From positions 62,001 to 126,000 of the forward strand of contig JAUYAK010000099.1 of the NCBI GenBank assembly GCA_030693515.1: a stretch of 64,000 nt of DNA, in the 5' to 3' direction. Made by a program: the position numbers and the translations under genes. Shown here piece by piece: positions 27,519 through 56,592 of the stretch (position 1 is the first letter of the stretch; each line of letters starts with the position of its first letter). The stretch is from Opitutaceae bacterium (GTDB lineage: Bacteria; Verrucomicrobiota; Verrucomicrobiia; Opitutales; Opitutaceae). Below the pieces are notes generated by a model. That model worked only from the letters and a program-made list of their open reading frames with translations. It searched no databases and was not told where the DNA came from.

Positions 27519-27875
27519 GGAAGGGTTTTGCCGACCATGTGCTCGCGCCGTCAATTCCAAGCGAGCGTTCGAACTCATCGGCCGCGACTCCCGAGTGGAT
27601 CACCGCCGAGTGTCTCGAAAGAACAACCCAAGACACTTCAGTCCGGACGATTGCCCGCGTTTCACTCTGGGCCGTCCCGTTTTTGGGAGGGTAGTCGTTT
27701 CCTGTGCAAGCGCCGTCCGACCACTCGCGACGGCGCTAAATCAAGTAAACGGAGAAAACAAAAAACCTTTCGCACCGACCTGACCGTGGGACACGACTCA
27801 GATTGAATGCACCGATGCCGCACCGGACCGTTGCTTGACAAAGACCGGCGTTGGCGATGTTGACCGTGTTACCCG
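27519..27875. other. intergenic region between divergent MBL and lacI genes
   Basis: This 357-base gap has no credible ORF. It holds a perfect 9-bp inverted repeat, AGCGCCGTC (27709-27717) and GACGGCGCT (27729-27737), with an 11-base spacer and no U tract. An A-rich stretch (27741-27768) could be part of a promoter, and an operator-like motif lies over the lacI start. Both flanking genes must be transcribed from here. Confidence 0.6.
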
Positions 27876-27880
27876 TTGAA
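27866..27880 (-). promoter_or_regulatory. LacI-type operator candidate over the lacI start (site 1 of 6)
   Basis: Read on the minus strand the sequence is TTCAACGGGTAACAC, with central CG at 27874-27875. It shares the ACGGGT(A/C)A core with five other sites in this window. It covers the TTG start codon of the lacI gene (27876), an arrangement suited to autorepression. Confidence 0.45.
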
Positions 27881-28958
27881 CAAACCCGCCAAACTCATCA
27901 CACTCGGCGACATTGCCGAACTCGCCAGAGTGAGCCGAACCACGGTGTCACTCGCGTTGCGGAACAGTCCCCGCATCAGCAAACGTGTCCGCACGCAGAT
28001 TCAGTCCGTGGCCCGCAAGCTGGGGTATCGCCAGAATCCGCTGGTCACCGCGCACATGTCCTACGTGCGATCGCTGCACCCGCGCTACACCGGGCAGTGC
28101 ATCGCACTGATCGGCAACCAGGCTCTTGCGCAGATCGAGGCGGACACTCTCCGCCCATTGCGCAAATACCTCCACGCGACTCGTGCGCGTGCGCAAGGTC
28201 TCGGCTACGAACTTGAATTATTCAATCTTGCCGAGGCCGGGATGACTTCGCAGCGGCTGTCGAAAATCCTGGTCGCGCGCGGAATCACTGGCGTAATTTT
28301 CCTTCCGCTCGATGACGGCGTGGGCCTAGTCAGCCTACCGCTGGATCCAACTCCGTTCGCGATGGTCATGATCGAACATGTCTTTATCGAGCCGCGGTTG
28401 CACAAAGTCTGCGACGATCAATTTTCGACCATTGGACGAATGATCCAGCGCCTGCTCGATTTTGGTTACACTCGCATCGGAATCGCGATGTCGAGCCGCG
28501 CCGACGATCACGCCAACCACTATTGGCTGGCCGGCTACCAAGCATTTCAGTCGCTCAGCGAGCCTTCCCACCGCATCCCGCATTTTATTTCGCCGGAATG
28601 GACCAAGGAAAAATTCCTCGGGTGGTATCGCGAATGGAAACCGGAGGCGATCATCACGATCGACGAAGACGTCGTCGTATGGTTGCGTGAAGCCGGCCTG
28701 CGCGTGCCCGAGGACATCGGTTGCGCTACGCTCTATTGGAAAGATGACCGCTCCTACCTCAGCGGTTTCTACCAAAATCACGAGCACATCGGTGCCGGGG
28801 CAGTCGACTTGGTCGCATCCCAACTTTATCACAACGAACGCGGACTTCCCTTCGAACAAAAAACCATGTTGGTTGAGGCGGTGTGGAAAGTGGGTAAGAC
28901 TCTTGTGCGGAAAACGCCGGCTGGCACGCACTCGCCGTTGCGCGTCTGGACTCGATAA
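27876..28958 (+). CDS. LacI-family transcriptional regulator
   Basis: This is a 360-residue regulator. The DNA-binding domain is unmistakable: LITLGDIAELARVSRTTVSL (about 7-26), then ALRNSPRISKRVRTQIQSVA and KLGYRQNP. A periplasmic-binding-protein-like sensor follows (about 65-345; GITGVIFLPLD, GYTRIGIAMSS and GCATLYWKDDRSYLSG). The start is the rare TTG at 27876: an in-frame TGA at 27861 rules out an upstream start, and the HTH begins only a few codons later. An operator-like motif overlaps this start. It precedes the GH101-like/ABC unit, so it probably represses oligosaccharide uptake genes until a ligand binds. Confidence 0.93.
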   Translation: MNKPAKLITLGDIAELARVSRTTVSLALRNSPRISKRVRTQIQSVARKLGYRQNPLVTAHMSYVRSLHPRYTGQCIALIGNQALAQIEADTLRPLRKYLHATRARAQGLGYELELFNLAEAGMTSQRLSKILVARGITGVIFLPLDDGVGLVSLPLDPTPFAMVMIEHVFIEPRLHKVCDDQFSTIGRMIQRLLDFGYTRIGIAMSSRADDHANHYWLAGYQAFQSLSEPSHRIPHFISPEWTKEKFLGWYREWKPEAIITIDEDVVVWLREAGLRVPEDIGCATLYWKDDRSYLSGFYQNHEHIGAGAVDLVASQLYHNERGLPFEQKTMLVEAVWKVGKTLVRKTPAGTHSPLRVWTR

Positions 28959-28999
28959 GACCGCGGGGTTGTCGGTGCTCGACCAGTTTCCGGTAGCCC

Positions 29000-29015
29000 G
29001 TATTACGGATAAAAC
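29000..29015 (+). promoter_or_regulatory. LacI-type operator candidate upstream of GH101-like gene (site 2 of 6)
   Basis: GTATTACGGATAAAAC has its central CG at 29006-29007, about 110 bases before the start at 29119. Thirteen of its first 15 bases match the ligA site (GTATTACGGGTAAAC at 34631), strong similarity for two non-coding gaps 5.6 kb apart. Confidence 0.5.
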
Positions 29016-29118
29016 GTCAACCTGCTGGAAGCTTCAATGGTGACAACATCGGATGCGGTGGTTTCTCCGCACTTCACGGATCGTGCGGCACACATTCACC
29101 CCCGACCCGACGATTGTC

Positions 29119-31014
29119 ATGAAAATCCTAACGCTTTTCGCAGCGCTCCTTTTGGCCGGTTCGTGCCTTGCCCAATCGATTGAGACCTCGCGCTTCCGTG
29201 TCAGTCTGCACGACGGCGGCGCGCTGGAAGTCGTGGACAAGATCGCTTCCGTTACCTGGCGCCAGCCCGCCTCAAGAGTGAAAATCTCGCAGACTGCGGC
29301 GACTACCAGCGAGATCAGATTCACGGTCAACGATACCGTCGCAGTCCGCGTCAGGGTGAGCGACAGCTCGGTCGAACTCACCCTCAACGGGAATGACCGC
29401 TCCATCGAGGGCATCGAGTATCCCACAGGCTTCACGCTCCCAGATGCCACCAGCGCCCAAACCCTCCTGCTGCCCTACTGCGCGGGCATGGCCATTCCGT
29501 TCGCCGCAAAGGATCGAGCCGACCTCAAGCGCGCCGCCGACTACTACGACGCCTGTAACAACCAGATGGGACTCACGATGCCGTGGATCGCCACCACGGA
29601 TGGCCGGGCCGGATCGCTAATGCTGGTCGAGACCCCGTTCGACGCTCGTTTCAAGGTCTGGACGGACAGCGCCGGCTACCAATACAGCACGGCTTGGAAG
29701 GACACCAAGGGCCGCCTCGGCTACGAGCGCCGCGTGCGGTATTATTTTTCCGCCATCGGCGGAGCCGTCGCGCTCTGCAAGGTCTACCGCGAGCATGCGC
29801 GGGCCGAGGGCCTGCTGGTGACGCTTATGGAAAAGCAAAAGACCATCCCAGCGATCGAACGCTTCCTCGGAGCCATGAGCCTTTGGGTGGTCGAGTGGCC
29901 AGACTTGGATCTCTTCAAGTCTATGAAGAACGCGGGGATTGACCGGGCGTTGGTAAGTTTCCACACGACGGAGAAAATCCCACCCGGCACTGTCAACCGC
30001 TACGGCCACAACACCACCTATGAGCCGATGACGCGAGACTTCACGAACCAGTTGCACGCGCTCGGCTATCTCGCAGGTCGCTACGACTACTACCGCACCA
30101 TCTACCCGCCCGACGACTCGGGTCGCGGCGGCAACGGCTGGATCATGCGGTTCACGGGCTATCCCGAGCAGCTTTCCCATGACGAAAATGGCAAAGTCCG
30201 CGCCGGCTTCCAAGGCGGCAACGTCGCGCCTGGCACACCCCTGCGTGGCCAGCGTTGCTCGAAATGTCAGTATGAGATGGCTCAGGTCTATATTCCCTTG
30301 GACGTGGACCGCACAGGATACGACGCGCGCCTGCTCGACGCCGTCTGCGCCGTGAGCTGGCAAGAGTGCTACAACCCAGCGCACCCCACCACTCGAATTG
30401 AGGACATGGAATGGCGCCGCAAACAGCTCCGGGTCGCGGTAGAGAGCAGCCAGATCACAGGCACCGAACATATGGCGCATTGGGCCGTCCCGCACGCAGT
30501 GTATGCTGAGGCCCCCACGACCTTTGTTCGCTTTGCTGCTTACCGTGAGAGTTTCAATGCCCAACCGTTCGAAACCCCGCCGGGATACAGCTCCGTAGTT
30601 CTTGATGAGCGCCTGCGTTTTCCTCTTTGGCAGCTCGTGTTTCACGATGCGGTGGTGGTGACCAACCGCTGGACCTTCGCCGCCAACCGCTACGCCGACG
30701 AGAAGGTCTGGGACAAGGAGGATCTCATCAATCTCCTCCATGGACACATGCCGACGTTCATGCTCAACCGCGAGAACTACACCGCCAAGGCGGTCCACTT
30801 CCTGAAAACGTTCCGCACCGTCTGCGAGTGGAACCGTGAGATCGGCTACGAAGAGATGACCGACTTCCGCTGGCTCACCCCCGATGGCAGCGTGCAACAG
30901 GCCGTCTATGCCTCGGGCCGCAGCATGGTCGTCAACTTTGGCGACCAAGAGTTCGCACTCTCTGCGACCGAGCGTGTGCCAGCGCACGGTTTCCTAATGT
31001 CCAAGATCCGCTGA
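29119..31014 (+). CDS. secreted GH101/GH129-like (DUF5696-type) glycosidase
   Basis: This is a 631-residue protein from ATG 29119, where a signal peptide begins (MKILTLFAALLLAGSCLAQS); the frame continues upstream to 29053 without a usable N-terminus. An N-terminal beta-sandwich (20-235) precedes a TIM barrel (about 275-560) with RALVSFHTTEKIPPGTVNRY, HALGYLAGRYDYYRTIYPPD, VYIPLDVDRTGYDARLLDAV and SSQITGTEHMAHW. A small C-terminal beta-domain closes it (GSVQQAVYASGRSMVVNFGD). The arrangement resembles GH101/GH129 endo-alpha-N-acetylgalactosaminidase relatives. Function is inferred at fold level only. The ABC system begins 20 bases later, so its oligosaccharide product may be the transported sugar. 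Confidence 0.68.
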   Translation: MKILTLFAALLLAGSCLAQSIETSRFRVSLHDGGALEVVDKIASVTWRQPASRVKISQTAATTSEIRFTVNDTVAVRVRVSDSSVELTLNGNDRSIEGIEYPTGFTLPDATSAQTLLLPYCAGMAIPFAAKDRADLKRAADYYDACNNQMGLTMPWIATTDGRAGSLMLVETPFDARFKVWTDSAGYQYSTAWKDTKGRLGYERRVRYYFSAIGGAVALCKVYREHARAEGLLVTLMEKQKTIPAIERFLGAMSLWVVEWPDLDLFKSMKNAGIDRALVSFHTTEKIPPGTVNRYGHNTTYEPMTRDFTNQLHALGYLAGRYDYYRTIYPPDDSGRGGNGWIMRFTGYPEQLSHDENGKVRAGFQGGNVAPGTPLRGQRCSKCQYEMAQVYIPLDVDRTGYDARLLDAVCAVSWQECYNPAHPTTRIEDMEWRRKQLRVAVESSQITGTEHMAHWAVPHAVYAEAPTTFVRFAAYRESFNAQPFETPPGYSSVVLDERLRFPLWQLVFHDAVVVTNRWTFAANRYADEKVWDKEDLINLLHGHMPTFMLNRENYTAKAVHFLKTFRTVCEWNREIGYEEMTDFRWLTPDGSVQQAVYASGRSMVVNFGDQEFALSATERVPAHGFLMSKIR

Positions 31015-31034: not shown

Positions 31035-32426
31035 ATGAGCCCCTTCGGCCGCGCCCGCGTTCTGCGACGCGGCGTGCTTGGCGCGGTGCTTGCGACCACA
31101 TTTCTGCGCGCCGCGCCGGATGCCGGTCGCATCCATCTCTCGTATTGGGAAAAATGGGCCGGCATCGACAGCGCCGGAATGCGCGCGGTCGTCGCCGCGT
31201 TCAACGAGGCGCAAAGCCGCTACGTCGTCGAGTATCTCCCTGTTTCGCAGATTGAGCGCAAGGTAGTCGTCGCCACCGCCGGCGGCGATCCTCCCGACAT
31301 CGCAGGGCTCTGGGCGCAAAACGTCGCCTCCTTCGCCGACAACGAAGCCATCCTCCCGCTCGAGGATCTTGTCCGCCGCGACGGCGGCACCACGGACCAA
31401 TGGCTCGCCCGCTACTATCCGGTTTACGCCGACATCTGCCGCCACCAGGGCCGCATGTTCGCCGCCGTCAGCACGCCCGCCACGATCGCGTTGCACTGGA
31501 ACAAGGCGCTTTTCCGCGAAGTCGGCCTCGACCCCGAACGCCCGCCGCGAACCCTTGCCGAACTCGACGAGTTCTCTCGCCGCCTCGCCAAACGCGATCC
31601 AGCGACGGGTGCGATCCTGCGCCTCGGCTTCCTCCCGCAGGAGCCGGATTGGTGGCCGTGGCTGTATTGCGCCTGGTTCGGGGGCCAGCTCTTCGATGGT
31701 CGCGCGGTCACGCTCGGCACCGACCCGCGCAATCTCGCGGCGATGCGCTGGGTGGCGGGCTACACGCGTGACGCCGGCCTCGCGTCGGTGACTACCTTCG
31801 CTTCCGGGTTTGGAAAATACGGCACGCCCCAGACCGCGTTTCTCAATGGAAAAATCGCGATGATGTTTCAGGGCGTTTGGTTCAACAACTTCATCCAAAA
31901 ATTCAGGCCCGGTCTCGACTACGGCGTGGCGCCGTTCCCCGCCGCTCAAGCGGGCGTCGAGGATTTCACGCTGGCCGAAGCCGATGTGCTCGTAATCCCG
32001 CGCGGCGCGCGGCACGCCGACGGCGCGTGGGAGTTCATCAAGTTCGTCAATTCGCACAACGCGCACGCGCAAAATCGCAGCGAGCTTCAGGGCATGGAGC
32101 TGCTTTGTTTCTTGCAGCAGAAGAATTCCCCGCTGCGCGACTGGAGTCCGTTCTTCACCCAGCACCATCCGCACCCGCATATCGCCGAGTTCCGCCGACT
32201 CAGTGCGAGCCCGCATGCCATTCGTATCCCCGACGTGGGCGTGTGGCAGGAATACGACCGCGAATGCAAGGCCATGTTCGAGCGCGTGCGCCTGCTCGTC
32301 GCCACACCCGAGGAAGCCATCGCCTACACGCATGCCCGCGTGAGCGCCAGTTGGGCCCGCCATCAACTCAGCCTCGTGAGGCACGGCCAGCTCGCCGAAG
32401 CGCCGTCTCCGACTCGCGCACCATGA
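31035..32426 (+). CDS. sugar ABC transporter substrate-binding protein
   Basis: This is a 463-residue extracytoplasmic binding protein of the MalE/UgpB class (SBP family 1). It has a signal region (VLGAVLATTFLRAAPDAG), then LSYWEKWAGIDSAGMRAVVA, FNEAQSRYVVEYLPV, GGDPPDIAGLWAQNVASFAD, LHWNKALFREVGLDPERPP and KIAMMFQGVWFNNFI. No lipobox cysteine follows the signal, so it is probably a free periplasmic protein. Its stop overlaps the next start (ATGA at 32423-32426). It delivers an oligosaccharide, or possibly a glycoside, to the two permeases downstream. Confidence 0.92.
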   Translation: MSPFGRARVLRRGVLGAVLATTFLRAAPDAGRIHLSYWEKWAGIDSAGMRAVVAAFNEAQSRYVVEYLPVSQIERKVVVATAGGDPPDIAGLWAQNVASFADNEAILPLEDLVRRDGGTTDQWLARYYPVYADICRHQGRMFAAVSTPATIALHWNKALFREVGLDPERPPRTLAELDEFSRRLAKRDPATGAILRLGFLPQEPDWWPWLYCAWFGGQLFDGRAVTLGTDPRNLAAMRWVAGYTRDAGLASVTTFASGFGKYGTPQTAFLNGKIAMMFQGVWFNNFIQKFRPGLDYGVAPFPAAQAGVEDFTLAEADVLVIPRGARHADGAWEFIKFVNSHNAHAQNRSELQGMELLCFLQQKNSPLRDWSPFFTQHHPHPHIAEFRRLSASPHAIRIPDVGVWQEYDRECKAMFERVRLLVATPEEAIAYTHARVSASWARHQLSLVRHGQLAEAPSPTRAP

Positions 32427-33313
32427 CTCCGCGCGACCGCCGCAGCCTCCTCTCCGGCCTCGGTTTCACCAGCCTGTGGATTGTCGGCTTCGGCACGTTC
32501 GTGGCCTATCCCATGCTCGCTTCGCTGTTCTACAGCTTCTGCGACTACTCGATTCTCAAGTCGCCCGTGTGGTGCGGGTTCGAAAACTATCAGACACTCG
32601 TGCGCGACGACCTGTTCTGGAAATCCCTCCGCAACACCCTGTTTTTTGCCGGGCTCGCCGTGCCGCTCGGCACGATCACGGCCCTCTCGCTGGCTCTGCT
32701 CCTCAACTGCGAGGTGCGCGGCCGGGCTTTTTTTCGCACGCTCTTTTACCTGCCCTCCATCGTCCCCGTCGTCGCCTCCTCGATGCTCTGGCTGTGGATG
32801 CTCAACGGAAAATTCGGGCTGATCAACGCGCTCCTCGCGCCCGTGCTCGCGCCGTTCGGCCTGACGCCTCCGGTGTGGCTCGCCGATCCTGCGTGGGCCA
32901 AACCCGCGCTCGTCATGATGAGCCTCTGGGGCGTGGGCAACGCGATGGTGATCTACCTCGCCGGCCTGCAAAACGTCCCGCGCGAACTCTACGAGGCCGC
33001 CGCCATTGACGGCGCCGGCGCTTGGCCGCGCTTCCGGCATATCACGCTCCCGACCATCGCACCCGTGATCTATTTCAACGTGATCATGGGGCTCATCAAC
33101 GCGCTTCAGATCTTCACGCAGGCGTTCGTCATCGCCGAGGGCGCCGAGGGCAATCCGGCCCGCTCCACGCTCTTCTACACGCCCTATCTGTTTTCGACCG
33201 CGTTCTACGATCTGCGCATGGGCTACGCGAGCGCGATGGCCTGGGTGCTCTTCGCGCTCATCGCCGGCCTCGCCTGGCTGGCCACGCGACTGATGCGCGA
33301 CTCGCTGCACTGA
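32423..33313 (+). CDS. sugar ABC transporter permease (MalF/UgpA type)
   Basis: This is a 296-residue inner-membrane protein with six predicted TM helices, from ATG 32423 (coupled to the binding protein gene). The longer open frame starting at 31877 is a shadow over the binding protein. The EAA loop that docks the ATPase is YEAAAIDGAGAWPRFRHITL. Other family segments include VWCGFENYQTLVRD and FYLPSIVPVVASSMLWLW. It pairs with the permease at 33346. Confidence 0.93.
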   Translation: MTPRDRRSLLSGLGFTSLWIVGFGTFVAYPMLASLFYSFCDYSILKSPVWCGFENYQTLVRDDLFWKSLRNTLFFAGLAVPLGTITALSLALLLNCEVRGRAFFRTLFYLPSIVPVVASSMLWLWMLNGKFGLINALLAPVLAPFGLTPPVWLADPAWAKPALVMMSLWGVGNAMVIYLAGLQNVPRELYEAAAIDGAGAWPRFRHITLPTIAPVIYFNVIMGLINALQIFTQAFVIAEGAEGNPARSTLFYTPYLFSTAFYDLRMGYASAMAWVLFALIAGLAWLATRLMRDSLH

Positions 33314-33345
33314 GCGCCGCGCCCCACGAAGCCTTGGCCCGTCGC

Positions 33346-34584
33346 ATGGAAACAGCCGCTGAAAAATCGCCCGCGCCGGTTCGTGCCTCGCGCGCGCGGG
33401 CGAGCCGCAGGCAATACGTGATCTACGGTCTGCTCGCGTGCGCCGCGCTGGTGTTCCTCACGCCGCTCGCGTGGCTGCTCGCGACCTCGCTCAAGCCGGT
33501 CGAGCAGACCATGTCGATGCCGCCCACCTGGATCCCGCGCACCCACTCCGCGTTGCTTGACGGCGAGCGCGTCGAAGTCTCCCGCGATTACCAGGTCACG
33601 CAGCCGGGCGTCATCGCCGAGATCACCGCCGGTCCCGAAGCGGGCCGACGCCTGCTGTTCACCGACGAGCAGGCAGCGGCGCGCCAGGCCGAGATTCGCG
33701 TGCTCCATCGCGTCGAGTCCGGCTGGTGGCGCGTCACCGAGCGCTCCGCCACCAACATCGTCGCCCGCACCGCGCGCTGGGACGTGGTGCCGCCCGAAGC
33801 GATCGAGTCGCGCGTGCGTTTCCGCTGGGAGAATTATCCGAAGGCCCTCGTCGCGCTCAGCGGAAAGAGCGTCGAGGAGATCGAGGCCGAGGCGCGGCGC
33901 GGCGCTTCCGCGCCTGCCGCCGCCGCGCCGGCCAGCGACGCCCCGGGCTTTTCGACCTTTCTCGGCAACACCCTCACCGTGTGCGTGCTCGGCGTGCTCG
34001 GCGTCGTGTTTTCCAATGCGCTCGTCGCCTACGGCTTCGCGCGCCTGCGCTGGCGAGGACGCGACACATTTTTCGCCATCACGCTCGCCACGATGATGGT
34101 GCCGTTCCCCGTGCTCGTCGTGCCGCTCTACGGATTGTTCAAGCAGCTCGGCTGGATCGGCACGCTGCTGCCGCTCTGGGCGCCGGCGTGGTTCGCCAGC
34201 GCGTTCAACATTTTTCTTCTGCGCCAGTTCTTCCGCACGATCCCCGAGGAGCTGAGCGAGGCGGCGCGAATCGACGGTTGCAGCGAGTTCGCCATCTTCT
34301 GGCGCATCATCCTGCCGCTCAGCAAACCGGCGCTCGCGACCGCCGCACTCCTCCATTTTCTCTTTGCGTGGAACGACTTCATGGGGCCGCTCCTCTACCT
34401 CACGCGCCAAAAATCCTTCACGCTCGCGCTCGCGCTGCAAAGCTACCAGTCGCAGCAAAGCGGCGTGCAATGGCACTACCTCATGGCCGCGAGCGCCGTG
34501 ACCATCCTGCCCATCGTGCTGTTGTTTTTCTTCGCGCAGAAAACGTTTATTCAGGGTATCGCGACCACCGGTTCGCGTAGCTAA
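33346..34584 (+). CDS. sugar ABC transporter permease (MalG type) with periplasmic insert
   Basis: This is a 412-residue permease from ATG 33346. TM1 (about 24-47) is followed by MPPTWIPR, which in ordinary MalG proteins leads within about 15 residues to NY..AL. Here roughly 95 extra residues (about 65-160) come first, before WENYPKALVAL. A second Ala/Pro-rich stretch (185-200) precedes FLGNTLTVCVLG. The EAA loop is SEAARIDGCSEFAIFWRIIL. The insert, rich in charged residues and beta-strand-like (RLLFTDEQAAARQAEIRVLH), should lie outside the membrane and may contact the binding protein. No ABC ATPase gene is present in the window, so a shared MsiK-like ATPase must serve it. Confidence 0.92.
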   Translation: METAAEKSPAPVRASRARASRRQYVIYGLLACAALVFLTPLAWLLATSLKPVEQTMSMPPTWIPRTHSALLDGERVEVSRDYQVTQPGVIAEITAGPEAGRRLLFTDEQAAARQAEIRVLHRVESGWWRVTERSATNIVARTARWDVVPPEAIESRVRFRWENYPKALVALSGKSVEEIEAEARRGASAPAAAAPASDAPGFSTFLGNTLTVCVLGVLGVVFSNALVAYGFARLRWRGRDTFFAITLATMMVPFPVLVVPLYGLFKQLGWIGTLLPLWAPAWFASAFNIFLLRQFFRTIPEELSEAARIDGCSEFAIFWRIILPLSKPALATAALLHFLFAWNDFMGPLLYLTRQKSFTLALALQSYQSQQSGVQWHYLMAASAVTILPIVLLFFFAQKTFIQGIATTGSRS

Positions 34585-34630: not shown

Positions 34631-34645
34631 GTATTACGGGTAAAC
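34631..34645 (+). promoter_or_regulatory. LacI-type operator candidate upstream of ligA (site 3 of 6)
   Basis: GTATTACGGGTAAAC has its central CG at 34637-34638, about 100 bases before ligA. It is nearly identical to the site upstream of the GH101-like gene. It is separated from the perfect palindrome at 34647 by a single base. Confidence 0.5.
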
Positions 34646-34646
34646 T

Positions 34647-34660
34647 GCCAAACGTTTGGC
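34647..34660. promoter_or_regulatory. perfect 14-bp palindrome upstream of ligA
   Basis: GCCAAACGTTTGGC is its own reverse complement, centred on CG. Perfect 12-16-bp palindromes with central CG are typical LacI/GalR or related operators. It lies 76 bases before the proposed ligA start and next to the shared motif. The cognate regulator is unknown; no LysR, IclR or MarR regulator of aromatic catabolism is encoded in the window. Confidence 0.5.
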
Positions 34661-34736
34661 CGCCCTTGAGTAGTTGGACTGTGTTCCGGTCGCCCCCTGT
34701 TCCGATGAATCGAACTACACCAACCCCGCTTCCGCA

Positions 34737-35998
<1,262 letters not shown>

Positions 35999-36949: not shown

Positions 36950-36962
36950 TGCGCACGCCACC

Positions 36963-39948: not shown

Positions 39949-39965
39949 TCAGCCGCGCCGCCCTT

Positions 39966-44414: not shown

Positions 44415-44552
44415 CGCTTGTCGGTTGCCGGGCGCGGCGAGCGAGCTATCCTCACCTCACAACCAAGCCCGCACATTCAAGGGTGACGCCAACCCCGGTC
44501 GCCGACAAATTTCCGGCCACTTCCGGCGCACCTCTTTCTCTGAACCATTTCA

Positions 44553-46283: not shown

Positions 46284-46289
46284 ACCTCC

Positions 46290-46451
46290 ATGCTTACAAT
46301 GCTCAACCACGAATTCCTGACCGCGGATCGCAGCGTCCAGCGGACGACCTTTCCCTCAGGTAAAAAGGTCACCGCAAATTTCAGTGAGCGAACCCAGACG
46401 GTGGGCGCCACCGCGATACCTGCCGGTAGTTTTGTCGTGACGAAAAGCTGA
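46290..46451 (+). pseudogene. 53-codon remnant of a GH101-like glycosidase C-terminus
   Basis: I found this small frame by translating the gap between the GH5-like and ROK genes. It has an ATG at 46290 and a TGA at 46449-46451 that overlaps the ROK start. The segment FLTADRSVQRTTFPSGKKVT, continuing with ANFSERTQ and IPAGSFVVTKS, aligns with the C-terminal beta-domain of the GH101-like protein at 29119 (WLTPDGSVQQAVYASGRSMV, VNFGD, VPAHGFLMSK). The barrel is absent. It looks like what remains after an internal deletion of a second GH101-like gene. It may still be translated because it links two genes with overlapping starts. Confidence 0.7.
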
Positions 46452-48858: not shown

Positions 48859-48879
48859 GTCTTCTTTACCTCGCGCACC

Positions 48880-50523
48880 ATGACTCGACTCTACGCAGGC
48901 ACGCCGGGATTCCGGCACATGCTCATTCTGGCGCTCATGGCTGCCGGGTTCAATTCAGTCGAGCTGATTACGAACAACCTGATTCCTATCACGTGCCGGC
49001 ATTTCACGGACAGCGCGTTTCTCATCTCGGCCATTCTCGCAACGAACCGGTTGTTCGGCTTCGTCGTGCAGCCCTATGTCTGCTGGAAGAGCGACTACCT
49101 GCGCACGCGCTACGGCCGGCGCCGTCCGTTTTTTCTCGTTGGCCTTCCGCTCACTGCCGTCGGCCTGCTTTTTGTCGGGTTGCTCCCAGTGTTCATCCAG
49201 GGAGACGCGCGCCACACGCTTCCCGCTCTGCTGCTCGTCGTCTCCGCCAACGTCCTCCTGCAGGCGATCGTCGACGTCAACTGGGGCAGTCTTGAACCGC
49301 TCTACGCGGATACGTTCCGTCATGAGCAACTCGGTCGCGCCGGCTCAATCCGCCAGATCGCATCGCAACTCGTGAATCTCGCGATGGTCAGCTACGTCAT
49401 CGGTTGGGCCGACACCAACGAACTCTACCCCTACTTGTTTTCGATCGCGGGCGTGCTGTTTTCACTCGCCCTCATGATCTGGGTGATCCGCGAGCAACCT
49501 GCCGGTGATCCTCCGCCACCCGAGCGCTACAGTCCGCTCAAGCATCTCGGCCTGCTCGTCGCCAACCGCGACTACACCAAGCTTGCCTTCATCTGCGCCG
49601 CCAATCTCGTGCTCCCGGCTGCCCTCTTTCTCTTCACGCCGCTCTACGTCACCGACACCCTCGGCCTCACCAAAGGCGAACTCGGCCGCGCCCAAATGCT
49701 CGGCCCGTTTCTCGTCATCGCGCTGGCCTTTCCCGTGGGCTGGCTCGTCGACCGCTTCGGCCCAAAGTGGATCATGGCATCCGGCTTCGTCCTCTACGCG
49801 GTAGCCTTTGTCGGTCTTGCTTTTTGGACCCGCGATTTCTGGACGCTGTTCACCTTCATGACCGTCTTCGGCGTCGCTCAAGTCGTCGCGCTCATGCCGA
49901 TGACGGCGATGGTTTTTCAATACACCTCGCCCACCGAGCGCGGCCAGGTCTTCGGCGTCGTCCAATTCACGCGCGCCTTCTCGGCCTTCGTGCTTTCGCT
50001 CAGCATCGGTTCCGTCGTGCAACTCGCCGATTCATATGAACCGACACCCTTTCGCACCCAGGATCTGAAAACGCCCACTCAGTTCGTCGCCCGGCTCAGT
50101 CAGCCGCAGGATGACGTCACCCGATTTGTCCGCGCCCGCCTCTCCGTCGAAACCGACCGACTCCTCGGACAAGTCTCCGCCGACACCAAGCCATTCCCGG
50201 CGCTGACTGACGCCCTCGTCGCCGACCTCAACCGCCTGCTGTCGGAGCCCGCCTTCCACACCGCTGAACGCTTCGCCGGCGTCGAACTCTCCCGCCAGAG
50301 CCGGCGCTTGCTCGACGAGAAGACCACCGCCGGCTCCCGGCTCATCGTGCTCAACCGCACGCTGCTCAACGACGCCTTCCCGGCCGAACTCTCGCGCAAA
50401 GCAGACTACCGACTGCCCTATCACATCGGTCTCGTGCTGGCCTGTCTCGCGACGATCGTCGCCCTCACCACGCGCCGCGGCACCTACGCGAGGACCCTCG
50501 CGACGGTCTCCGGCCCCGCCTGA
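48880..50523 (+). CDS. MFS sugar transporter with large loop insert
   Basis: This is a 547-residue transporter of the GPH/SLC45-like major facilitator type. TM2-3 loop residues are WKSDYLRTRYGRRRPFFLVG; FPVGWLVDRFGPKWIMASG repeats the motif in the second half. Between the eleventh and last TM helices lies an insert of about 130 hydrophilic residues (about 383-513; QPQDDVTRFVRARLSVETDR, LLDEKTTAGSRL). The final helix is YHIGLVLACLATIVALTT. It follows the sulfatase by 21 bases. It is the likely importer of the oligosaccharide handled by the GH5-like enzyme, sulfatase and kinase. Confidence 0.88.
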   Translation: MTRLYAGTPGFRHMLILALMAAGFNSVELITNNLIPITCRHFTDSAFLISAILATNRLFGFVVQPYVCWKSDYLRTRYGRRRPFFLVGLPLTAVGLLFVGLLPVFIQGDARHTLPALLLVVSANVLLQAIVDVNWGSLEPLYADTFRHEQLGRAGSIRQIASQLVNLAMVSYVIGWADTNELYPYLFSIAGVLFSLALMIWVIREQPAGDPPPPERYSPLKHLGLLVANRDYTKLAFICAANLVLPAALFLFTPLYVTDTLGLTKGELGRAQMLGPFLVIALAFPVGWLVDRFGPKWIMASGFVLYAVAFVGLAFWTRDFWTLFTFMTVFGVAQVVALMPMTAMVFQYTSPTERGQVFGVVQFTRAFSAFVLSLSIGSVVQLADSYEPTPFRTQDLKTPTQFVARLSQPQDDVTRFVRARLSVETDRLLGQVSADTKPFPALTDALVADLNRLLSEPAFHTAERFAGVELSRQSRRLLDEKTTAGSRLIVLNRTLLNDAFPAELSRKADYRLPYHIGLVLACLATIVALTTRRGTYARTLATVSGPA

Positions 50524-50532: not shown

Positions 50533-50548
50533 CGTCAACGGGTAAAGT
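50533..50548 (+). promoter_or_regulatory. LacI-type operator candidate upstream of SIS gene (site 5 of 6)
   Basis: CGTCAACGGGTAAAGT has its central CG at 50539-50540. It lies in the 79-base gap after the MFS gene, about 63 bases before the SIS gene start. Confidence 0.5.
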
Positions 50549-50602: not shown

Positions 50603-51214
50603 ATGAAAACCCACCTCGCCGAACTGCTTGCGCGCCGCCCTGAACTCGTCGTCTGCGCTCCCACAATCCACTCTGCCTACACGCTGCTCCGCGACTGTTT
50701 TCGCAGCGGCGGCCGCATTTATCTCTGCGGAAACGGCGGTAGTGCGGCCGACTGCGAGCACTGGGCCGGCGAGTTGCTCAAAGGTTTTTATTCCAAGCGC
50801 CCCTCGCGCCGTGCCGACGGCCGCCCGCTGCCCCGCGAGTTGCGCGGACTGCAAGGCGGCCTGCCCGCGATTCCACTCACGGGTTTTCTCTCGCTCCGCA
50901 CCGCCGTCGCCAACGACATCGATCCCACGCTTGAATACGCGCAGCTCGTCTGGGCCCTCGGCCGCCCCGGCGACGTGCTCGTCGGCATCAGCACCTCTGG
51001 CAACGCCCGTAACGTCGGCCTCGCCGCCCGCGCCGCGAAGCTGCGGCGCATGACCGTGGTCGGGCTCTCCGGCGCACACGGCGGCAAGCTCCGCGACCTC
51101 GCCGATCCCTGCCTCCGCGTGCCTGCCACGCAGACCCACCTCATCCAGGAACAACATCTCGCGATCTATCACACGCTTTGCCTCGCGCTCGAAGACGAGT
51201 TTTTTTCCAAATAA
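50603..51214 (+). CDS. SIS-domain phosphosugar isomerase (GmhA-like)
   Basis: This is a 203-residue SIS protein. The phosphosugar-binding segments are RIYLCGNGGSAADCEHWAGE and DVLVGISTSGNARNVGLAAR, and the C-terminal QTHLIQEQHLAIYH matches sedoheptulose-7-phosphate isomerase (GmhA/DiaA group), including the usual His and Gln residues. No other heptose or lipopolysaccharide gene is nearby. Within a glycan cluster it may isomerise a different phosphosugar, for example one produced by the ROK kinase. The next gene starts 7 bases later. Confidence 0.85.
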   Translation: MKTHLAELLARRPELVVCAPTIHSAYTLLRDCFRSGGRIYLCGNGGSAADCEHWAGELLKGFYSKRPSRRADGRPLPRELRGLQGGLPAIPLTGFLSLRTAVANDIDPTLEYAQLVWALGRPGDVLVGISTSGNARNVGLAARAAKLRRMTVVGLSGAHGGKLRDLADPCLRVPATQTHLIQEQHLAIYHTLCLALEDEFFSK

Positions 51215-51221
51215 TCCGCTC

Positions 51222-52928
51222 ATGAAACCCTCCGTCCGTCTGCTCCTCGTCGCCGCGATCCTCCTCTGCGGCACCCTTCTCGCCCACGCCTACAACCCGC
51301 CGGCCGGAGTCGAGTTTCTACCCGACATCCCCTACCGCACCGAGCACGTGAAGCAGAAGCTCGACATCCTTCGCCCGACGAACCGCTCCGGTCCGCTGCC
51401 GGCCATCCTCCTCGTCCATGGCGGCGGCTGGCGCGAGGGCCGTCGCGAGGAACAGCGCGGCATTGCCAGCCGTTTCGCCCAGGCCGGCTACATCGCCATC
51501 CCAGTCGGCTACCGCCTTACCGGCGAGGCGCCTTTCCCGGCTTGCCTCGACGATGTCGTCGCGGCCGCGCGCTGGGTGCGCGCCCACGCGAAGGACTACG
51601 GCATCGACCCCGACCGCATCGGCGCCCTCGGCCACTCCGCCGGCGCCCATCTCGTCTGCATGCTCGCGCTCGCCGAGCCCGCGGGAAAATTCGCCCCCGG
51701 TTTCCTCGACGGCGTCTCCGGCCGCGTCAACGCCGTCGTCGCCACCGCGGCGCCCACGGACTTCACGCGCTGGGGCGCGGACCACGGCCAGGCCGGTGGC
51801 ACGATGTTTTTCGACCAGCTCCCGCCCACCGAGCGCGACGCCGAAGCCCGCCGGTGCTCGCCGCTCTTCCACGCCGACGCCTCCGCGCCGCCCATTTTGC
51901 TGATCCAAGGCTCGGCCGACCGCGTCGTCCCGCCCGTGCAGACGGAGCGCCTCATCGCCGCGTTGCGCACCGCCAAGGCCCCGCTCGCCGAACGCGTCCT
52001 TCTCGACGGCCGGCCGCACGACTTCATCCTCTCCCACGAAACCCTGCTCGTGCCGATGCAGATTTCCTTCTTCGACCGCACCATCGGCAAAGACGCCGGC
52101 CGCTACGCCCGCGAGATCGCCATCGCCGATGATTCGCGACCCGCCCGCAACAACAAGGAGATCGCCGCCACCTGGCTCGCGCAGTTCGACACCGACGGAG
52201 ACGGGTTTGTCACCCGCGCCGAGTTCCCCGGCGGCCAGGAACTCTTCGAGCGATTCGATCGCGCCATCGACGGTAAGAAGATCGCGCTGGCCTCCACCGC
52301 CGGCGTTTTCAGACGCACCCGAATCATCGGTTACAGCCAGGTCGGCCAACCGCGCGGCGGCTGGTTTGTCGCCGACCGCATCTTTGAGTCCCTCGTCGGG
52401 AATGATCGCTGGGAACTGTTATGGAACGGTGGCGCCGACGTGGACAAGTGGCAGGATCCCGCCTACGAGGGCTGGTCGCGTCCGCTCGTCTCACCTTGCC
52501 CGGGTGACACTCCTGTTGACCGTGTCCTGCTTTCCATCAGCGGTCCCTACGGCAGCGACGAAAAAGCCTGGGCCGACGCCATCAACGCAACCATCAACAC
52601 GATCGAGAAAAAACTTCCGACCGCCCGCCAGATCGTCCTGCAGCCCGTCGTCGGCGGACCCGGCGGCCAGCCCTGCCCCGCCCCGGCCGGTTCCCAGTCG
52701 CGCGACGGCCGCATTCGCGCCTCCTGGCAGCATGCGCACATCAGCAATGCCATTCGCGAAGTCGTGAAGCACCGGGTCGGCGCGACAGTGTCCGTGATCG
52801 CCGGTATTGAACCGCAGGTCCGGACCTGCGATGACTACGCTGACGCACTTGGCCACCTCACGCCAGCCGGCGCCGCCGCAGCGGCGCGCGCGATCGGCGC
52901 CCATTATGCCACGCCGGCCGCGCCTTGA
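51222..52928 (+). CDS. secreted alpha/beta-hydrolase - EF-hand - SGNH-like fusion
   Basis: This is a 568-residue exported protein (signal VRLLLVAAILLCGTLLAHAY). Domain 1 (30-300) is a BD-FAE/acetyl-esterase type hydrolase: oxyanion HGGGW (66-70), nucleophile elbow GALGHSAGAH (Ser about 138), Asp in QGSADRVVPP and His in GRPHDF. One EF-hand follows (FDTDGDGFVTRAEF, about 322-335). The C-terminal part (350-568) resembles an SGNH/GDSL-type domain: IGYSQVGQPRGGWFVADRIF, LLWNGGADVDKW, LLSISGPYGSDE, and an end DDYADALGHLTPAGAAAAAR that fits the DxxH block. Assignment of the last domain is tentative. Two ester-cleaving modules on a calcium linker suit deacylation of decorated polysaccharide. Confidence 0.78.
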   Translation: MKPSVRLLLVAAILLCGTLLAHAYNPPAGVEFLPDIPYRTEHVKQKLDILRPTNRSGPLPAILLVHGGGWREGRREEQRGIASRFAQAGYIAIPVGYRLTGEAPFPACLDDVVAAARWVRAHAKDYGIDPDRIGALGHSAGAHLVCMLALAEPAGKFAPGFLDGVSGRVNAVVATAAPTDFTRWGADHGQAGGTMFFDQLPPTERDAEARRCSPLFHADASAPPILLIQGSADRVVPPVQTERLIAALRTAKAPLAERVLLDGRPHDFILSHETLLVPMQISFFDRTIGKDAGRYAREIAIADDSRPARNNKEIAATWLAQFDTDGDGFVTRAEFPGGQELFERFDRAIDGKKIALASTAGVFRRTRIIGYSQVGQPRGGWFVADRIFESLVGNDRWELLWNGGADVDKWQDPAYEGWSRPLVSPCPGDTPVDRVLLSISGPYGSDEKAWADAINATINTIEKKLPTARQIVLQPVVGGPGGQPCPAPAGSQSRDGRIRASWQHAHISNAIREVVKHRVGATVSVIAGIEPQVRTCDDYADALGHLTPAGAAAAARAIGAHYATPAAP

Positions 52929-52989
52929 CCCACCACCACCCCTTCTTGCACGCGGGCAACAGCTCGCGGCGCATCCACCCCACCCCGCG

Positions 52990-54237
52990 ATGTCCGCCTC
53001 CGACCCTTCATCTCCCGCCGCCGGCCGCGCGCCGGTCGGTCTTGCTCTTGCCGCGTTCCTGCTCGCCGCCCTTGCCGTCCTGCCCGGTTGCCTCGGTTTC
53101 CTCGTATTCACGCACACGCTGACCGCGACACCCGCCGGGGCCTGGTTCGTCTATGTCGCCGCCATCCCGCTCTATGCGTTGAGCGCGCTGCTGCTGCTCG
53201 CGGCCTTCATTCTCGCCCGGCGCCGTCGCTCCCGGCTCCGGTGGGTGGTATTGTCGGCCGTGGCGTTCGGCGGCGTCTCCCTCTTCGGCTTCCTCATGCA
53301 CACCGGCTTTCTATTCCGGCCGGTGACTCAACCCGAATACGTCTCGCTCGACGAGGCCATCCACAGATTCGGCGAAAGCGAGCCGATAGTCGGTGTGCTC
53401 GATGGCGAGGGCCGCCCTTACGCTTACATCGCCCGTCTGGCCCGCCGGCCGCACATTGTCCAGCAGCCCGAAGGCGACGCGCCGTTCATGATGAGCCATT
53501 GCATCCTCGCCAACAGCTCCATGGCCTACGCGCTCGATCCGGACGCACCGCCGCCACACATCTCCATCTCATCCGTCCTCGCCAACAACCTTATCTATTA
53601 CGATCACGGCACGAAAAACACCGTCCAACAGGTTTACAATTGTTCGCTCGATGGCCGCGATCGCCTGACCAGTCTGCCCACCGTCACCACCACGCTGGCC
53701 GCCTGGCAGACCCTCTATCCGGAGTCGAAGGTCTGGGTGCGGCCGAGGGAGTGGCGGGACACATTCTATCTCAAGCTTCTCGCCCGCGCGTCCGTCATCG
53801 ATCAGCAAAGCCCCGATCTCGTTTATCCGCTGCAGCGTCCGGCTGATCCACGCCTGCCTTTGAAGGCCTACGTGATGGGCGTGCAATCGGGCGACGAGTC
53901 GTGCGCCTATCCACTCGACGCATTGGTTCGCGACGGGGTGCTGCAGGATGATTTCGCCGGCAGGCCGTTGGTGTTCTTCGCCTCCAGCGACGGCGAATTC
54001 GTTCAGCTCTATTCACGCCGCGTTCCGGGCGACGGTCGCGTCCTGAACTTCACCGCCCTTCCGGATGGCTCCGCCATCCGCGACGGGGAGACCGGCTCGC
54101 GGTGGGACGTCGCCGGCCGCTGCATCGCCGGCGAGTTGCGAGGAACCCGGCTGGCACCGGTTCCTCACTATAGCCGCATCTTCTGGTGCGTCTGGGCGGA
54201 TTTTTCCCCTAAGTCCGAAGTGCGTCCACGCAGCTGA
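52990..54237 (+). CDS. DUF3179-type membrane-anchored protein
   Basis: This is a 415-residue protein from ATG 52990; the open frame to 52807 overlaps the previous gene and is proline/arginine shadow. Three hydrophobic segments lie in the first 120 residues (LALAAFLLAALAVLPGCLGF, WFVYVAAIPLYALSALLLLA, WVVLSAVAFGGVSLFGFLM). The soluble domain has DUF3179 features: VGVLDGEGRPYAYIARLARR, FMMSHCILANSSMAYA (the family's YCPLCNS position, keeping one Cys) and YVMGVQSGDESCAYPLDAL. The function of this family is unknown. It is encoded between esterase and beta-mannosidase genes, probably in the same transcript. Confidence 0.75.
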   Translation: MSASDPSSPAAGRAPVGLALAAFLLAALAVLPGCLGFLVFTHTLTATPAGAWFVYVAAIPLYALSALLLLAAFILARRRRSRLRWVVLSAVAFGGVSLFGFLMHTGFLFRPVTQPEYVSLDEAIHRFGESEPIVGVLDGEGRPYAYIARLARRPHIVQQPEGDAPFMMSHCILANSSMAYALDPDAPPPHISISSVLANNLIYYDHGTKNTVQQVYNCSLDGRDRLTSLPTVTTTLAAWQTLYPESKVWVRPREWRDTFYLKLLARASVIDQQSPDLVYPLQRPADPRLPLKAYVMGVQSGDESCAYPLDALVRDGVLQDDFAGRPLVFFASSDGEFVQLYSRRVPGDGRVLNFTALPDGSAIRDGETGSRWDVAGRCIAGELRGTRLAPVPHYSRIFWCVWADFSPKSEVRPRS

Positions 54238-54271
54238 AACACCCCGCCTTTCAATCTCTTTTCCGCCACCC

Positions 54272-56581
54272 GTGAATTTCCCGCTCCGGCAAACCATCGA
54301 TCTGACCGGCGCTTGGTCGCTCGCCGTGGATTTCAAGCCCGGCGACCTGCGGACCATCGCCGACGTCGAGGCGAGCGGCCGGAAAATCCATCCGTGTCAG
54401 GTGCCTGGCAATCTCGAGTTGGACCTCCACGCAGCGGGCGAGATTCCGGAGCCGTTCCACGGCATGAACATTGCCACTCTTCGGAAATACGAGTCGGCGC
54501 ATGCCTGGTATTTCCGTCGCTTCGACTGCACCGTGCCCGCCGGGACGACACCTGTCTTCATTTTCGAAGGGCTCGACTGCTTCGCCGACGTCCATCTCAA
54601 CGGTCGGCTCATCGGTTCCTCCGCAAACGCACTGGTCGAACACTCCTTCCCAGCGGAAGGCCTGCGTGCGACGGGAAACGAGCTTGTTGTTCATCTTCGT
54701 CCTGTCGCCGAGGAGGCCAAGCATTTCGAATATTCGCCCGGTGCAGTGGCACAGCCCAATTCCTACGAAAGCCTCCGCGTCCGCAAGGCGCCGCATGCCT
54801 TCGGCTGGGACATCATGCCCCGCGCCGTCTCCGCCGGCATCTGGCGGCCTGTGCGGCTCGAATTCCTCCCCGCCGCACGGCTCGACACCGTCTGGCTCGA
54901 AACCACCGCGGCCGATGAACGCGAGTCGAAGCTCACGCTGCATTTCCGCACGCGGCTACCCGCGGGAGAATTGTTGTCTGGCTATGAGATTACGCTCGAA
55001 GCCGTCTGCGGCGATTCGGAGTTCACCGCCCGCACGCCGCTGATGTTTGAAGCGGGTCGAATCGCGCTCACGGTGAAAACCCCGTGCCGTTGGTGGCCGC
55101 GTGACCGCGGCAGACCCGATCTCTACGACGTGATTGTGCGGCTGCGAAAGGATGGGCGCGAACTCGATCGCGCGGAGTTTCGCCACGGCATCCGGACGGT
55201 TGAGTTGAGACGCACGAGCCTTACGGATGAGGTCGGCCGCGGTGAGTTCTGCTTCCTCATCAATGGCGAGCGCGTCTTCATGCGCGGCACCAACTGGGTG
55301 CCCGCCGACGCCTACCACTCGCGCGACGCCGTGCGCCTCCCGCGCATGCTCGCACTACTCGATGAGTGTGGTTGCAACATGGTTCGATGCTGGGGCGGCA
55401 ACGTTTACGAACCCGCGGCGTTTTTCGATTTCTGCGACGAGCATGGAATCCTGGTCTGGCAGGATTTCGCGATGGCGTGCGCCGTCTATCCGCAAGACGA
55501 CACGTTCGCGCGCGTCATCGACGAGGAAGCGCGCAAGATAATCCGCCGCCTTCGTCAGCACGCGTCGCTCGTCTGCTGGGCGGGCGACAACGAATGCGAC
55601 CGCGCCTATGACTGGTATCGGCGCGGCCTCGCCGACAAGAACCGTCTGACGCGCGAAGTGATTCCACGTGTGCTCGCGGACGAAGATCCGAGCCGACCCT
55701 ATCTGCCCTCGTCTCCGTGGATCGACGCGACTGCCGCGCCGGTCGATCGTCGCTACCTGCCCGAGGCGCACTTGTGGGGCCCGCGCGATTATTTCCGGAG
55801 CGCCTACTACGCCGGCTCGCCCGCGCATTTCGCCAGTGAGATCGGCTACCACGGCAGCCCAGCCGCCGCGTCAGTGCGCAAATTCATCTCACCGGAGAAA
55901 CTCTGGCCGCCCGGCAACGACGAATGGCTCCTTCACGCCACCTCGCCCGTGCCCGGCGTCGAGCTGTGGGACTACCGCGTCGAGCTCATGCTCAAGCAGC
56001 TCCGCGAGATGTTCGGCACCGTGCCGGATAACCTCGACGACTTCGCCTGGCAAAGCCAGTGCGTGCAGGCTGAAGCGAAGAAGTTCTTCATCGAGCTCTT
56101 CCGTGGCACGAAGTGGCGTCGCACCGGCATTCTCTGGTGGAACTTGATCGATGGCTGGCCGCAGTTCTCCGACGCCGTCGTGGACTATTTTTTCGAAAAG
56201 AAACTCGCCTTCGACTTCATCACGCGCGCGCAGCAGCCGTTGCTCGTCATGCTTCGCGAACCACAGGGCTGGACGCAGGATCTCGTCGCGTGCAACGACA
56301 CGCGCGAGCCCATTGTTCTCCACTACACCGTGCGCGACGCCGACAGCGGGCAGGTGCTCACCGATGGCTCCCGCACGGCCGCGCCCGACGCTGTCACCGT
56401 GCTGGAAGCGCTGCCGTTTACCCGCAGCCACGCCCGTTTTCTGATCATCGACTGGAAGACTCCGCGCGGCTCCGCCCGCAACCACTACCTGGCAGGCGAC
56501 CCCCCATTCGACGCTTCGCGATACCGGCGGTGGTTGAATGATACCTACTTCTTGCCCCTACAGTTGCCCGCGGTCCTGTGA
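54272..56581 (+). CDS. GH2 beta-mannosidase
   Basis: This is a 769-residue cytoplasmic enzyme from GTG 54272; the frame upstream to 54065 overlaps the DUF3179 gene. The GH2 order is complete: sugar-binding jelly roll (VNFPLRQTIDLTGAWSLAVD, IFEGLDCFADVHLNGRLIG), Ig-like domain, then TIM barrel with MRGTNWVPADAYHSRDAV and MVRCWGGNVYEPAAFFDFCD. The acid/base is Glu441 in WAGDNECD and the nucleophile is Glu523 in FASEIGYHGSP. Both contexts are those of beta-mannosidases rather than beta-galactosidases. It releases mannose from beta-mannosides or manno-oligosaccharides. The stop codon lies within an operator-like motif for the next unit. Confidence 0.92.
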   Translation: MNFPLRQTIDLTGAWSLAVDFKPGDLRTIADVEASGRKIHPCQVPGNLELDLHAAGEIPEPFHGMNIATLRKYESAHAWYFRRFDCTVPAGTTPVFIFEGLDCFADVHLNGRLIGSSANALVEHSFPAEGLRATGNELVVHLRPVAEEAKHFEYSPGAVAQPNSYESLRVRKAPHAFGWDIMPRAVSAGIWRPVRLEFLPAARLDTVWLETTAADERESKLTLHFRTRLPAGELLSGYEITLEAVCGDSEFTARTPLMFEAGRIALTVKTPCRWWPRDRGRPDLYDVIVRLRKDGRELDRAEFRHGIRTVELRRTSLTDEVGRGEFCFLINGERVFMRGTNWVPADAYHSRDAVRLPRMLALLDECGCNMVRCWGGNVYEPAAFFDFCDEHGILVWQDFAMACAVYPQDDTFARVIDEEARKIIRRLRQHASLVCWAGDNECDRAYDWYRRGLADKNRLTREVIPRVLADEDPSRPYLPSSPWIDATAAPVDRRYLPEAHLWGPRDYFRSAYYAGSPAHFASEIGYHGSPAAASVRKFISPEKLWPPGNDEWLLHATSPVPGVELWDYRVELMLKQLREMFGTVPDNLDDFAWQSQCVQAEAKKFFIELFRGTKWRRTGILWWNLIDGWPQFSDAVVDYFFEKKLAFDFITRAQQPLLVMLREPQGWTQDLVACNDTREPIVLHYTVRDADSGQVLTDGSRTAAPDAVTVLEALPFTRSHARFLIIDWKTPRGSARNHYLAGDPPFDASRYRRWLNDTYFLPLQLPAVL

Positions 56582-56592
56582 ACGGGTCAAAC
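56577..56592 (+). promoter_or_regulatory. LacI-type operator candidate upstream of triple esterase gene (site 6 of 6)
   Basis: TGTGAACGGGTCAAAC has its central CG at 56583-56584, about 67 bases before the ATG at 56651. It covers the stop codon of the GH2 gene. Confidence 0.5.

Follow-up and report, generated by a model that had tools for sequence, protein, structure and literature searches.

Why should a predicted operon for 4-hydroxybenzoate breakdown lie among glycan-utilization genes, and could one LacI-family regulator govern both? The question is raised by a stretch of 64,000 nucleotides from an Opitutaceae bacterium (GCA_030693515.1, contig JAUYAK010000099.1; hereafter the window), which corresponds to C25:62001-126000 on a 183-kb contig (C25) of a 6.65-Mb genome (G000). 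The original prediction, made from the letters of the window, had proposed that a single operator-like motif in six gaps joins glycan and aromatic catabolism under the LacI-family protein encoded there (P0001). We find that the motif precedes corresponding units in two other genera and that it was kept while the ring-cleavage pathway behind it was exchanged; P0001 probably binds this motif and activates the glycan and 4-hydroxybenzoate units from upstream of the −35 element.

A shared motif in the gaps of the cluster

All six predicted sequences are present at the positions given for them, and sites 29000 and 34631 are identical at 13 of 15 bases, as had been claimed. With gene starts and gap placement taken from our own gene caller, the claim that every site lies in a gap holds for four, which fall wholly between genes, but not for the other two: site 27866 overlaps the TTG start of lacI and site 56577 includes the final 5 bases of the gene for GH2. 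These six, one extra site in the window and three gap sites outside it on the same contig are as follows (columns T27, G29 and T55 refer to the alignment described below).

27744..27759, + strand: extra site upstream of lacI, AGTAAACGGAGAAAAC; T27, G29 and T55 present; second-best match of the matrix from the other genera
27866..27881, − strand: site over the lacI start, GTTCAACGGGTAACAC; one mismatch to the strict core; repressor-like position directly after a TTGACA element
29000..29015, + strand: site before the GH129/ABC importer unit, GTATTACGGATAAAAC; the orthologous gap in G147 also has a site
34631..34646, + strand: site before the ligA operon, GTATTACGGGTAAACT; the orthologous gap in G147 carries GGTAAACGGGTAAACC
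44399..44414, + strand: site before the GH5/ROK/sulfatase/MFS unit, GCTCAACGGGTCAAAT; the GH5 gap in G147 has a weaker site
50533..50548, + strand: site before the SIS/BD-FAE/GH2 unit, CGTCAACGGGTAAAGT; the SIS gap in G147 has a site
56577..56592, + strand: site before the three-domain esterase unit, TGTGAACGGGTCAAAC
C25:128785, − strand, outside the window: gap site before a TonB receptor
C25:134397, − strand, outside the window: gap site before a second TonB receptor
C25:134489, + strand, outside the window: gap site before a CoA-transferase unit

A further good match, CGATAACGGGAAAAAT inside pobA (window 42513-42528, score 17.3), is probably due to chance.

The two other genera are represented by G147 (a metagenome-assembled genome, Verrucomicrobia bacterium BJ21) and G065 (a genome of one contig), in both of which the motif precedes the corresponding glycan, esterase and TonB units. 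With sites counted at a matrix score of at least 13, gap sites of G147 stand before TonB2 (divergent from lacI), GH129-GH2, TonB1, the lig-pobA operon, the CoA-transferase operon and SIS, as well as before a second GH129 with BD-FAE and before esterases; a weaker site precedes GH5-ROK-sulfatase-MFS, and other matches lie inside lacI (one) and on C40 (one). The comparison of orthologous gaps suggested with the prediction supports it at the GH129, lig and SIS gaps and, through the weaker site, at GH5. Within the 140-187 kb of G065 that were examined, six gap sites and two in-gene matches all fall at 149-181 kb, the former before the pca operon, a TonB receptor, an esterase-sulfatase-GH5-ROK unit, a second sulfatase, a GH129-MFS-SIS-esterase unit (its GH129 only 28% like that of the window) and a hydrolase/sulfatase-maturase pair. 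The second gene behind site 149184 of G065 is this sulfatase-maturase (C1:146843-148153), and sulfatase maturation may therefore belong to the regulon. When at most 1 mismatch to GTNAACGGRTAAAMC is allowed, G065 has 9 matches, 5 of them around lacI at 149-181 kb, and G147 has 10, 7 of them on C6/C54; the reversed controls gave 0 and 2. In the two orthologous gap pairs that were aligned (lig and TonB1) the motif is kept and the flank has mostly diverged.

To judge placement, 14 sites of G147 and G065 were used to build a matrix with which C25 was scanned; gaps make up 8.6% of positions on this contig. The top eight matches of the matrix all lie inside the 45-kb cluster region (the block), seven of them in gaps, while of 1000 column-permuted control matrices none reached seven in gaps and none seven in the block (the maximum in both was 2); the 14 sites had themselves been found by a matrix trained on the window's contig, so that the test is a cross-genus one and not wholly independent. 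The TATTAC-type sites (29000, 34631 and C25:134489) are not among the best matches of this matrix. It is clear from these results that the sites share a 16-bp motif and that the set is real, and the claim that such placement is unlikely by chance stands.

The whole-genome scan that had been proposed as a check gave mixed results: matches do cluster on C25, but the 16-mer is no more frequent than its reversed control. Within the window, the strict core ACGGRTMAA has 5 matches, each of them a plus-strand site of the original prediction (shuffled sequences gave a mean of 1.19, and 1 of 100 reached 5). Over the whole genome, the 16-mer GTNNWACGGRTMAAAC with at most 2 mismatches gave 110 matches vs. 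130 for the reversed control and is not enriched, while exact WACGGRTMAAA gave 14 (control 9), of which 5 lie on C25 within 44 kb, 5 belong to one dispersed repeat and 4 lie elsewhere. For WACGGRTMAANY the count was 22 vs. 13 in G000, but of 37 other genomes 32 did not exceed their control and 5 did. Genome-wide enrichment of a short motif was dropped as evidence on these grounds, and support has to come from local clustering and cross-genus conservation.

Could the sites then be a chance resemblance sharpened by the reader's selection, or copies of a dispersed repeat? The lack of genome-wide enrichment of the 16-mer speaks for this, as does the single repeat family behind 5 of the 14 exact core matches, which also fits the extended pattern described below. 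However, the flanks of the six sites are unlike the repeat, the matrix test gave 0 of 1000, and the motif persists in the lig and TonB1 gap pairs despite diverged flanks. We hold this explanation to be refuted by the conservation in G147 and G065 together with the matrix test, within the caveat on independence given above, and regard its probability as negligible. The repeat itself (..GGTCCGGCCCTACGGGTAAAACCATTGGGCGATTGG.., at C38:42429, C40:17693, C66:36187, C94:100995 and C104:26864, all outside the window) holds the core plus a TTG at equal spacing and could be a decoy or a source of such sites.

Ring-cleavage routes and the candidate regulator

The units behind the sites in the window consist of the following genes.

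27876..28958, +: LacI-family regulator P0001, TTG start (Pfam LacI helix-turn-helix, E 5.9e-12; Peripla_BP_3, E 2.7e-8)
29053..31014, +: GH129/GH101-related glycosidase (Pfam PF11308, E 3.4e-23)
31035..34584, +: ABC importer, solute-binding protein and two permeases
34674..35998, +: LigA and LigB, protocatechuate 4,5-dioxygenase (Pfam; NCBIfam TIGR02792 and NF009903 above cut-off)
36008..41747, +: LigC-like dehydrogenase, aldo/keto reductase, 4-oxalomesaconate tautomerase, LigI-like hydrolase, LigK aldolase and LigJ-like amidohydrolase (NF033377 and TIGR02798 above cut-off)
41744..42925, +: PobA, 4-hydroxybenzoate 3-monooxygenase (NF006091 at 610 bits, cut-off 351; equivalog TIGR02360 at 528, just below 539)
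42973..44379, +: MFS transporter, last gene of the lig operon (weak match to the PcaK model, far below cut-off)
44553..50523, +: GH5, ROK kinase, sulfatase and MFS sugar transporter
50603..56581, +: SIS isomerase, BD-FAE esterase, DUF3179 and GH2
56603..63045, +: three-domain esterase, two xylose-isomerase-like barrels and sulfatase

For the 4,5-cleavage of protocatechuate, NCBIfam models score above their cut-offs for LigA, LigB, the tautomerase, LigK and the PobA subfamily; the LigC-, LigI- and LigJ-like roles are assigned by Pfam fold and position only, with no model confirming them. The cluster is predicted to encode the route from 4-hydroxybenzoate through protocatechuate to 4,5-cleavage.

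The motif precedes a lig/pobA operon in G147 just as in the window. In G065, lacI shares its gap with an operon for PcaC, PcaH, PcaG, PcaB-like and PcaF-like proteins, a fused PcaIJ, PobA and a DASS transporter, i.e., the ortho route. Models above cut-off are TIGR02425, TIGR02422, TIGR02423, TIGR02428/02429 and NF006091, PcaB and PcaF score below their equivalog cut-offs, and no PcaD model passed; the genes together make up a protocatechuate 3,4-cleavage set. LigB, found at 100% in G000 and 79% in G147, is without a match in G065, whose genome is a single contig. PcaH has no match in G147 and in G000 only a match spanning 93 residues, at 41%. PobA of the other two genomes matches that of the window at 70.5 and 76%, and GH5, ROK, sulfatase, SIS, MFS and esterases are likewise common to the clusters. 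Non-homologous ring-cleavage routes stand behind the same operator, and the link between glycan and 4-hydroxybenzoate genes has outlived the replacement of the pathway. Because the pathway was swapped and the operator retained, we take the joint control of glycan and 4-hydroxybenzoate genes that had been proposed to be functional, and this is the strongest argument for it.

On the strength of genomic association, P0001 is the probable regulator of the motif sites, as the original prediction had it, and the shared motif is conserved in two other genera. The protein shows the LacI helix-turn-helix (PF00356, 45.6 bits, cut-off 27) and the periplasmic-binding-protein-like effector domain (PF13377, 34.5 bits, cut-off 26.5); having both domains, it is assigned to the LacI/GalR family. 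Its best solved chain is the LacI-family 4o5a (E 2.9e-6), and an alignment search against solved chains at E 1e-10 gave no match. Orthologues are found at 76% in G147 and 56% in G065. In a family survey of 252 genomes five passed E 1e-75, namely G000, G147, G065 and two at 42-44%, so that only the first three exceed 44%; in a phylum sample of 387 genomes only G000 and G065 passed the P0001 search.

Another regulator encoded elsewhere, e.g., an AraC-type activator, could own the motif, with lacI merely among its targets. AraC-type activators are commonly placed at a fixed spot beside the −35, and the motif is palindromic only in part, both of which would suit such a protein. Nevertheless, over the genes scanned (neighbours were scanned partly, least in G147) no regulator but LacI was recognised in each of the three clusters, gap sites lie next to lacI or on either side of it in every one of these genomes, and palindromic relatives of the motif adjoin other LacI genes, which leaves this alternative quite improbable.

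Operator geometry and probable mode of action

We aligned 26 sites and counted 22 of them, leaving out 27866, 27744, G147 C40:41452 and G065 371996. Beyond columns 2-16, conservation is seen at T27 (21 of 22, P 4e-15), G29 (21 of 22, P 6e-10) and T55 (13 of 22, P 2e-5), and column 50 is A or T in 15 of 22. T27 occurs together with G29 in 21 of 22 sites across three genera, which means that the distance from operator to predicted −35 is fixed across promoters. When scored with E. coli models, the −35 element has its best position at column 27 and the −10 element, leaving the motif itself aside, at column 50; column 28 has T in 9 sites and G in 9, which is atypical for a −35. A sigma-70-like promoter with a spacer of ~17 bp seems reasonable, and with column 62 as +1 the operator would span −61 to −46, centred at −53.5. 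The transcription start estimated in this way precedes the start codon in 20 of 22 cases. TNG might instead be a second half-site of the protein and no −35, but the lack of conservation at mirror columns −10 and −12 speaks against this. Two of the predicted promoters in the window are placed as follows.

34657..34662, +: TGGCCG, predicted −35 of the lig operon, columns 27-32
44425..44430, +: TTGCCG, predicted −35, with a predicted −10 TATCCT at 44447-44452 and a 16 bp spacer

Outside the 16-mer, column −9 (about −71) is C in 17 of 22 sites. The GH129 start at 29053 lies 8 bp upstream of the estimated transcription start, and translation may in fact begin at the in-frame GTG of position 29074.

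The central CG pair that had been read into the motif does not hold, as the core's CG is not at the dyad centre. The even centre (columns 8-9) is GG in 22 of 23 sites, and complementarity is 0.42 at the even centre (column 8.5) and 0.49 at the odd centre (column 8.0), so that a centre on one G fits slightly better and the motif is only partly palindromic. At the position of LacI Leu56, which we take to be the hinge-helix leucine that enters the minor groove, all three orthologues carry a histidine (His60), a difference that has no bearing on family membership; over 56 homologues, two orthologues included, the residue is Leu in 39 and His in 10. That the hinge His brings about the GG centre is unsupported, since the L098 homologue with a Leu hinge also has a GG-centred site beside its gene.

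The spacing can be followed further with an extended pattern, TNWACGGRTMAA-N12-TNG, whose exact matches number 4 in G000, 3 in G065 and 7 in G147, of which 4, 3 and 6 are in the clusters. In G158, G199, G022, G031 and G002, which have no orthologue of at least 56%, it occurs 0, 0, 1, 1 and 0 times, the G031 match lying ~1 kb from a LacI gene of 38%. With 1 mismatch there are 20 matches in G000 (9 in the cluster, 5 in repeat copies and 6 elsewhere; control 10) and 27 in G147 (9 on C6/C54; control 11).

A palindromic form of the motif, TTWACGNGTAAA, was searched with no −35 requirement in 20 genomes picked mostly for holding LacI homologues. At 19 newly fetched places T27 is present in 14 and T27 with G29 in 8, vs. 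1.1 expected, and column 27 is the best among offsets 17-69; without G086 1872605, which had been seen earlier, T27 with G29 stands at 7 of 18 (P 4e-5). LacI-family genes adjoin palindromic-form sites in G031, G086, G121, G098 and G176, and such a gene lies within the fetched stretch (at most 3 kb) at 5 of 19 places (L180, L181, L191, L192 and L194, with L191 and L192 sharing one gene). Clear even palindromes do occur at paralogous sites, e.g., TTTACGCGTAAA in G031. This sequence (L175, G031 C1:3498267) lies between divergent genes and has N10-TTG to its left and right, as would suit an operator shared by two promoters. At L100 (G098 C220) two ACGTTAGGGCTAACGT copies flank another LacI-family gene and are probably that paralogue's own operator.

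Does P0001 repress or activate? A conventional repressor could bind all sites and be relieved by an oligosaccharide, with the constant −35 distance reflecting shared promoter ancestry or the blocking of polymerase's upstream contacts. Most characterised LacI-family members do repress, and lacI site 27866 sits at a repressor position. On the other hand, repressor sites usually overlap the region from the −35 to about +20, and by the promoters estimated here 0 of 22 do so; the spacing to TNG is equal in 21 of 22 sites in three genera, and the symmetric G031 operator, between divergent genes, is followed by N10-TTG in either direction. An upstream site need not activate, as the lev operon cre of CcpA is upstream of its promoter yet represses by blocking an activator, according to PMC3463425. 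A plain repressor reading seems unlikely to us, since an operator upstream of the estimated −35 points to activation; nearly all sites appear to be at an activator position, and only the one that covers the start of lacI looks repressive.

The motif with its placement, conservation and fixed spacing, the pathway swap and the association with LacI genes are computed results, whereas in the activator model that we prefer the binding of P0001, its activating role, its ligand and the substrate are what we infer. A P0001 dimer would sit on an imperfect palindrome of 16 bp (GTNNACGGGTAAAAC-like), its centre ~53.5 bp upstream of the transcription start, and from this position would activate sigma-70-like promoters in which the −35 (TNG) starts 10 bp beyond the operator, while a further operator copy over its own start would repress lacI. 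The regulon would comprise two TonB receptors, the ABC importer, sugar transporters and the GH129, GH5, GH2, sulfatase, kinase and isomerase genes, together with several esterases, the CoA-transferase unit and the predicted route from 4-hydroxybenzoate by way of protocatechuate. The esterases (BD-FAE and related), PobA, the glycosidases and the sulfatases fit a carbohydrate with 4-hydroxybenzoyl esters as the substrate, which would be the simplest account of the biology: esterases would free the acid and glycosidases the sugar, and one signal would induce both.

Several observations weigh against this model. The esterases and PobA are no proof of a 4-hydroxybenzoyl glycan. When all 26 rows are counted, the four left out included, T27 falls to 23 of 26 and G29 to 22 of 26 (of these four, 27744 has T27, G29 and T55, C40:41452 has T27 only, 27866 has T55 only and 371996 has none), and one of the 22, G147 5227, lacks both T27 and G29. 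The −10 signal is modest, and weak at the 19 paralogous places. Two GH129 leaders come out at −8 (G000) and −1 (G147), so the start codon or the promoter is misplaced at those units. The extended pattern was written after the alignment had been seen, and with 1 mismatch it gave 12 matches in G065 (7 in the cluster) vs. 13 in the control. The palindromic form TTWACGNGTAAA had 24 matches in 10 genomes vs. 38 for its reversed control and, being rarer than the control, surely includes some chance matches. Perfect palindromes near other LacI genes show no clear TNG excess (3 of 26 vs. 1.36), which limits the claim to this operator type; a fixed geometry for every LacI of the family is unsupported by this generic palindrome search.

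Known systems and implications

Genes for 4-hydroxybenzoate and protocatechuate are controlled by PobR, PcaR and LigR-type regulators, which are AraC/IclR/LysR types sensing aromatics and not LacI-family proteins; their target pathways are the same as here. Among the literature matches listed there was no LacI-family regulator of 4-hydroxybenzoate or protocatechuate genes, nor a studied LacI-family regulator from the phylum, for which most of the matches listed by one search were to the name Lacipirellula.

The nearest precedent for the proposed mode of action is CcpA of Bacillus, a LacI-family protein whose cre boxes upstream of the −35 (ackA, pta, ilvB) activate, while boxes over the promoter repress (PMC3463425). 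CcpA differs in that it works with HPr-Ser-P, is global and activates in a minority of cases, whereas here a local regulator would have nearly all its sites at one upstream position. Cra/FruR and PckR are dual LacI-family regulators, described or predicted to activate and repress (PMC4052901), and control central carbon metabolism, unlike the regulon proposed here. The local sugar regulons of the family in RegPrecise (same source) likewise have the regulator amid transporters, glycosidases and a kinase, with a site at its own gene; they differ from the present regulon in that it includes an aromatic ring-cleavage route and in that its operator centre is not CG. A central CG pair is given there for 1173 of 1303 LacI-family regulators, another pair also for 49 regulators, and the words "aromatic" and "Verrucomicrobi" are absent from the main text of that paper.

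We put forward tentatively, at somewhat under even chances, that a branch of LacI-family proteins in this bacterial family are primarily activators acting from a single fixed position 10 bp upstream of the −35, one of which would link carbohydrate sensing to ring cleavage so tightly that the entire cleavage pathway was exchanged (meta for ortho) with operator, pobA and glycan genes kept under shared control. The locus provides a testable regulon in a phylum for which the literature searched listed no studied LacI-family regulator, and an example of regulation conserved across a non-orthologous pathway swap. It may also point to a class of substrates, namely glycans that carry 4-hydroxybenzoyl esters, and its fixed geometry makes the hypothesis of an "activator LacI" directly testable.

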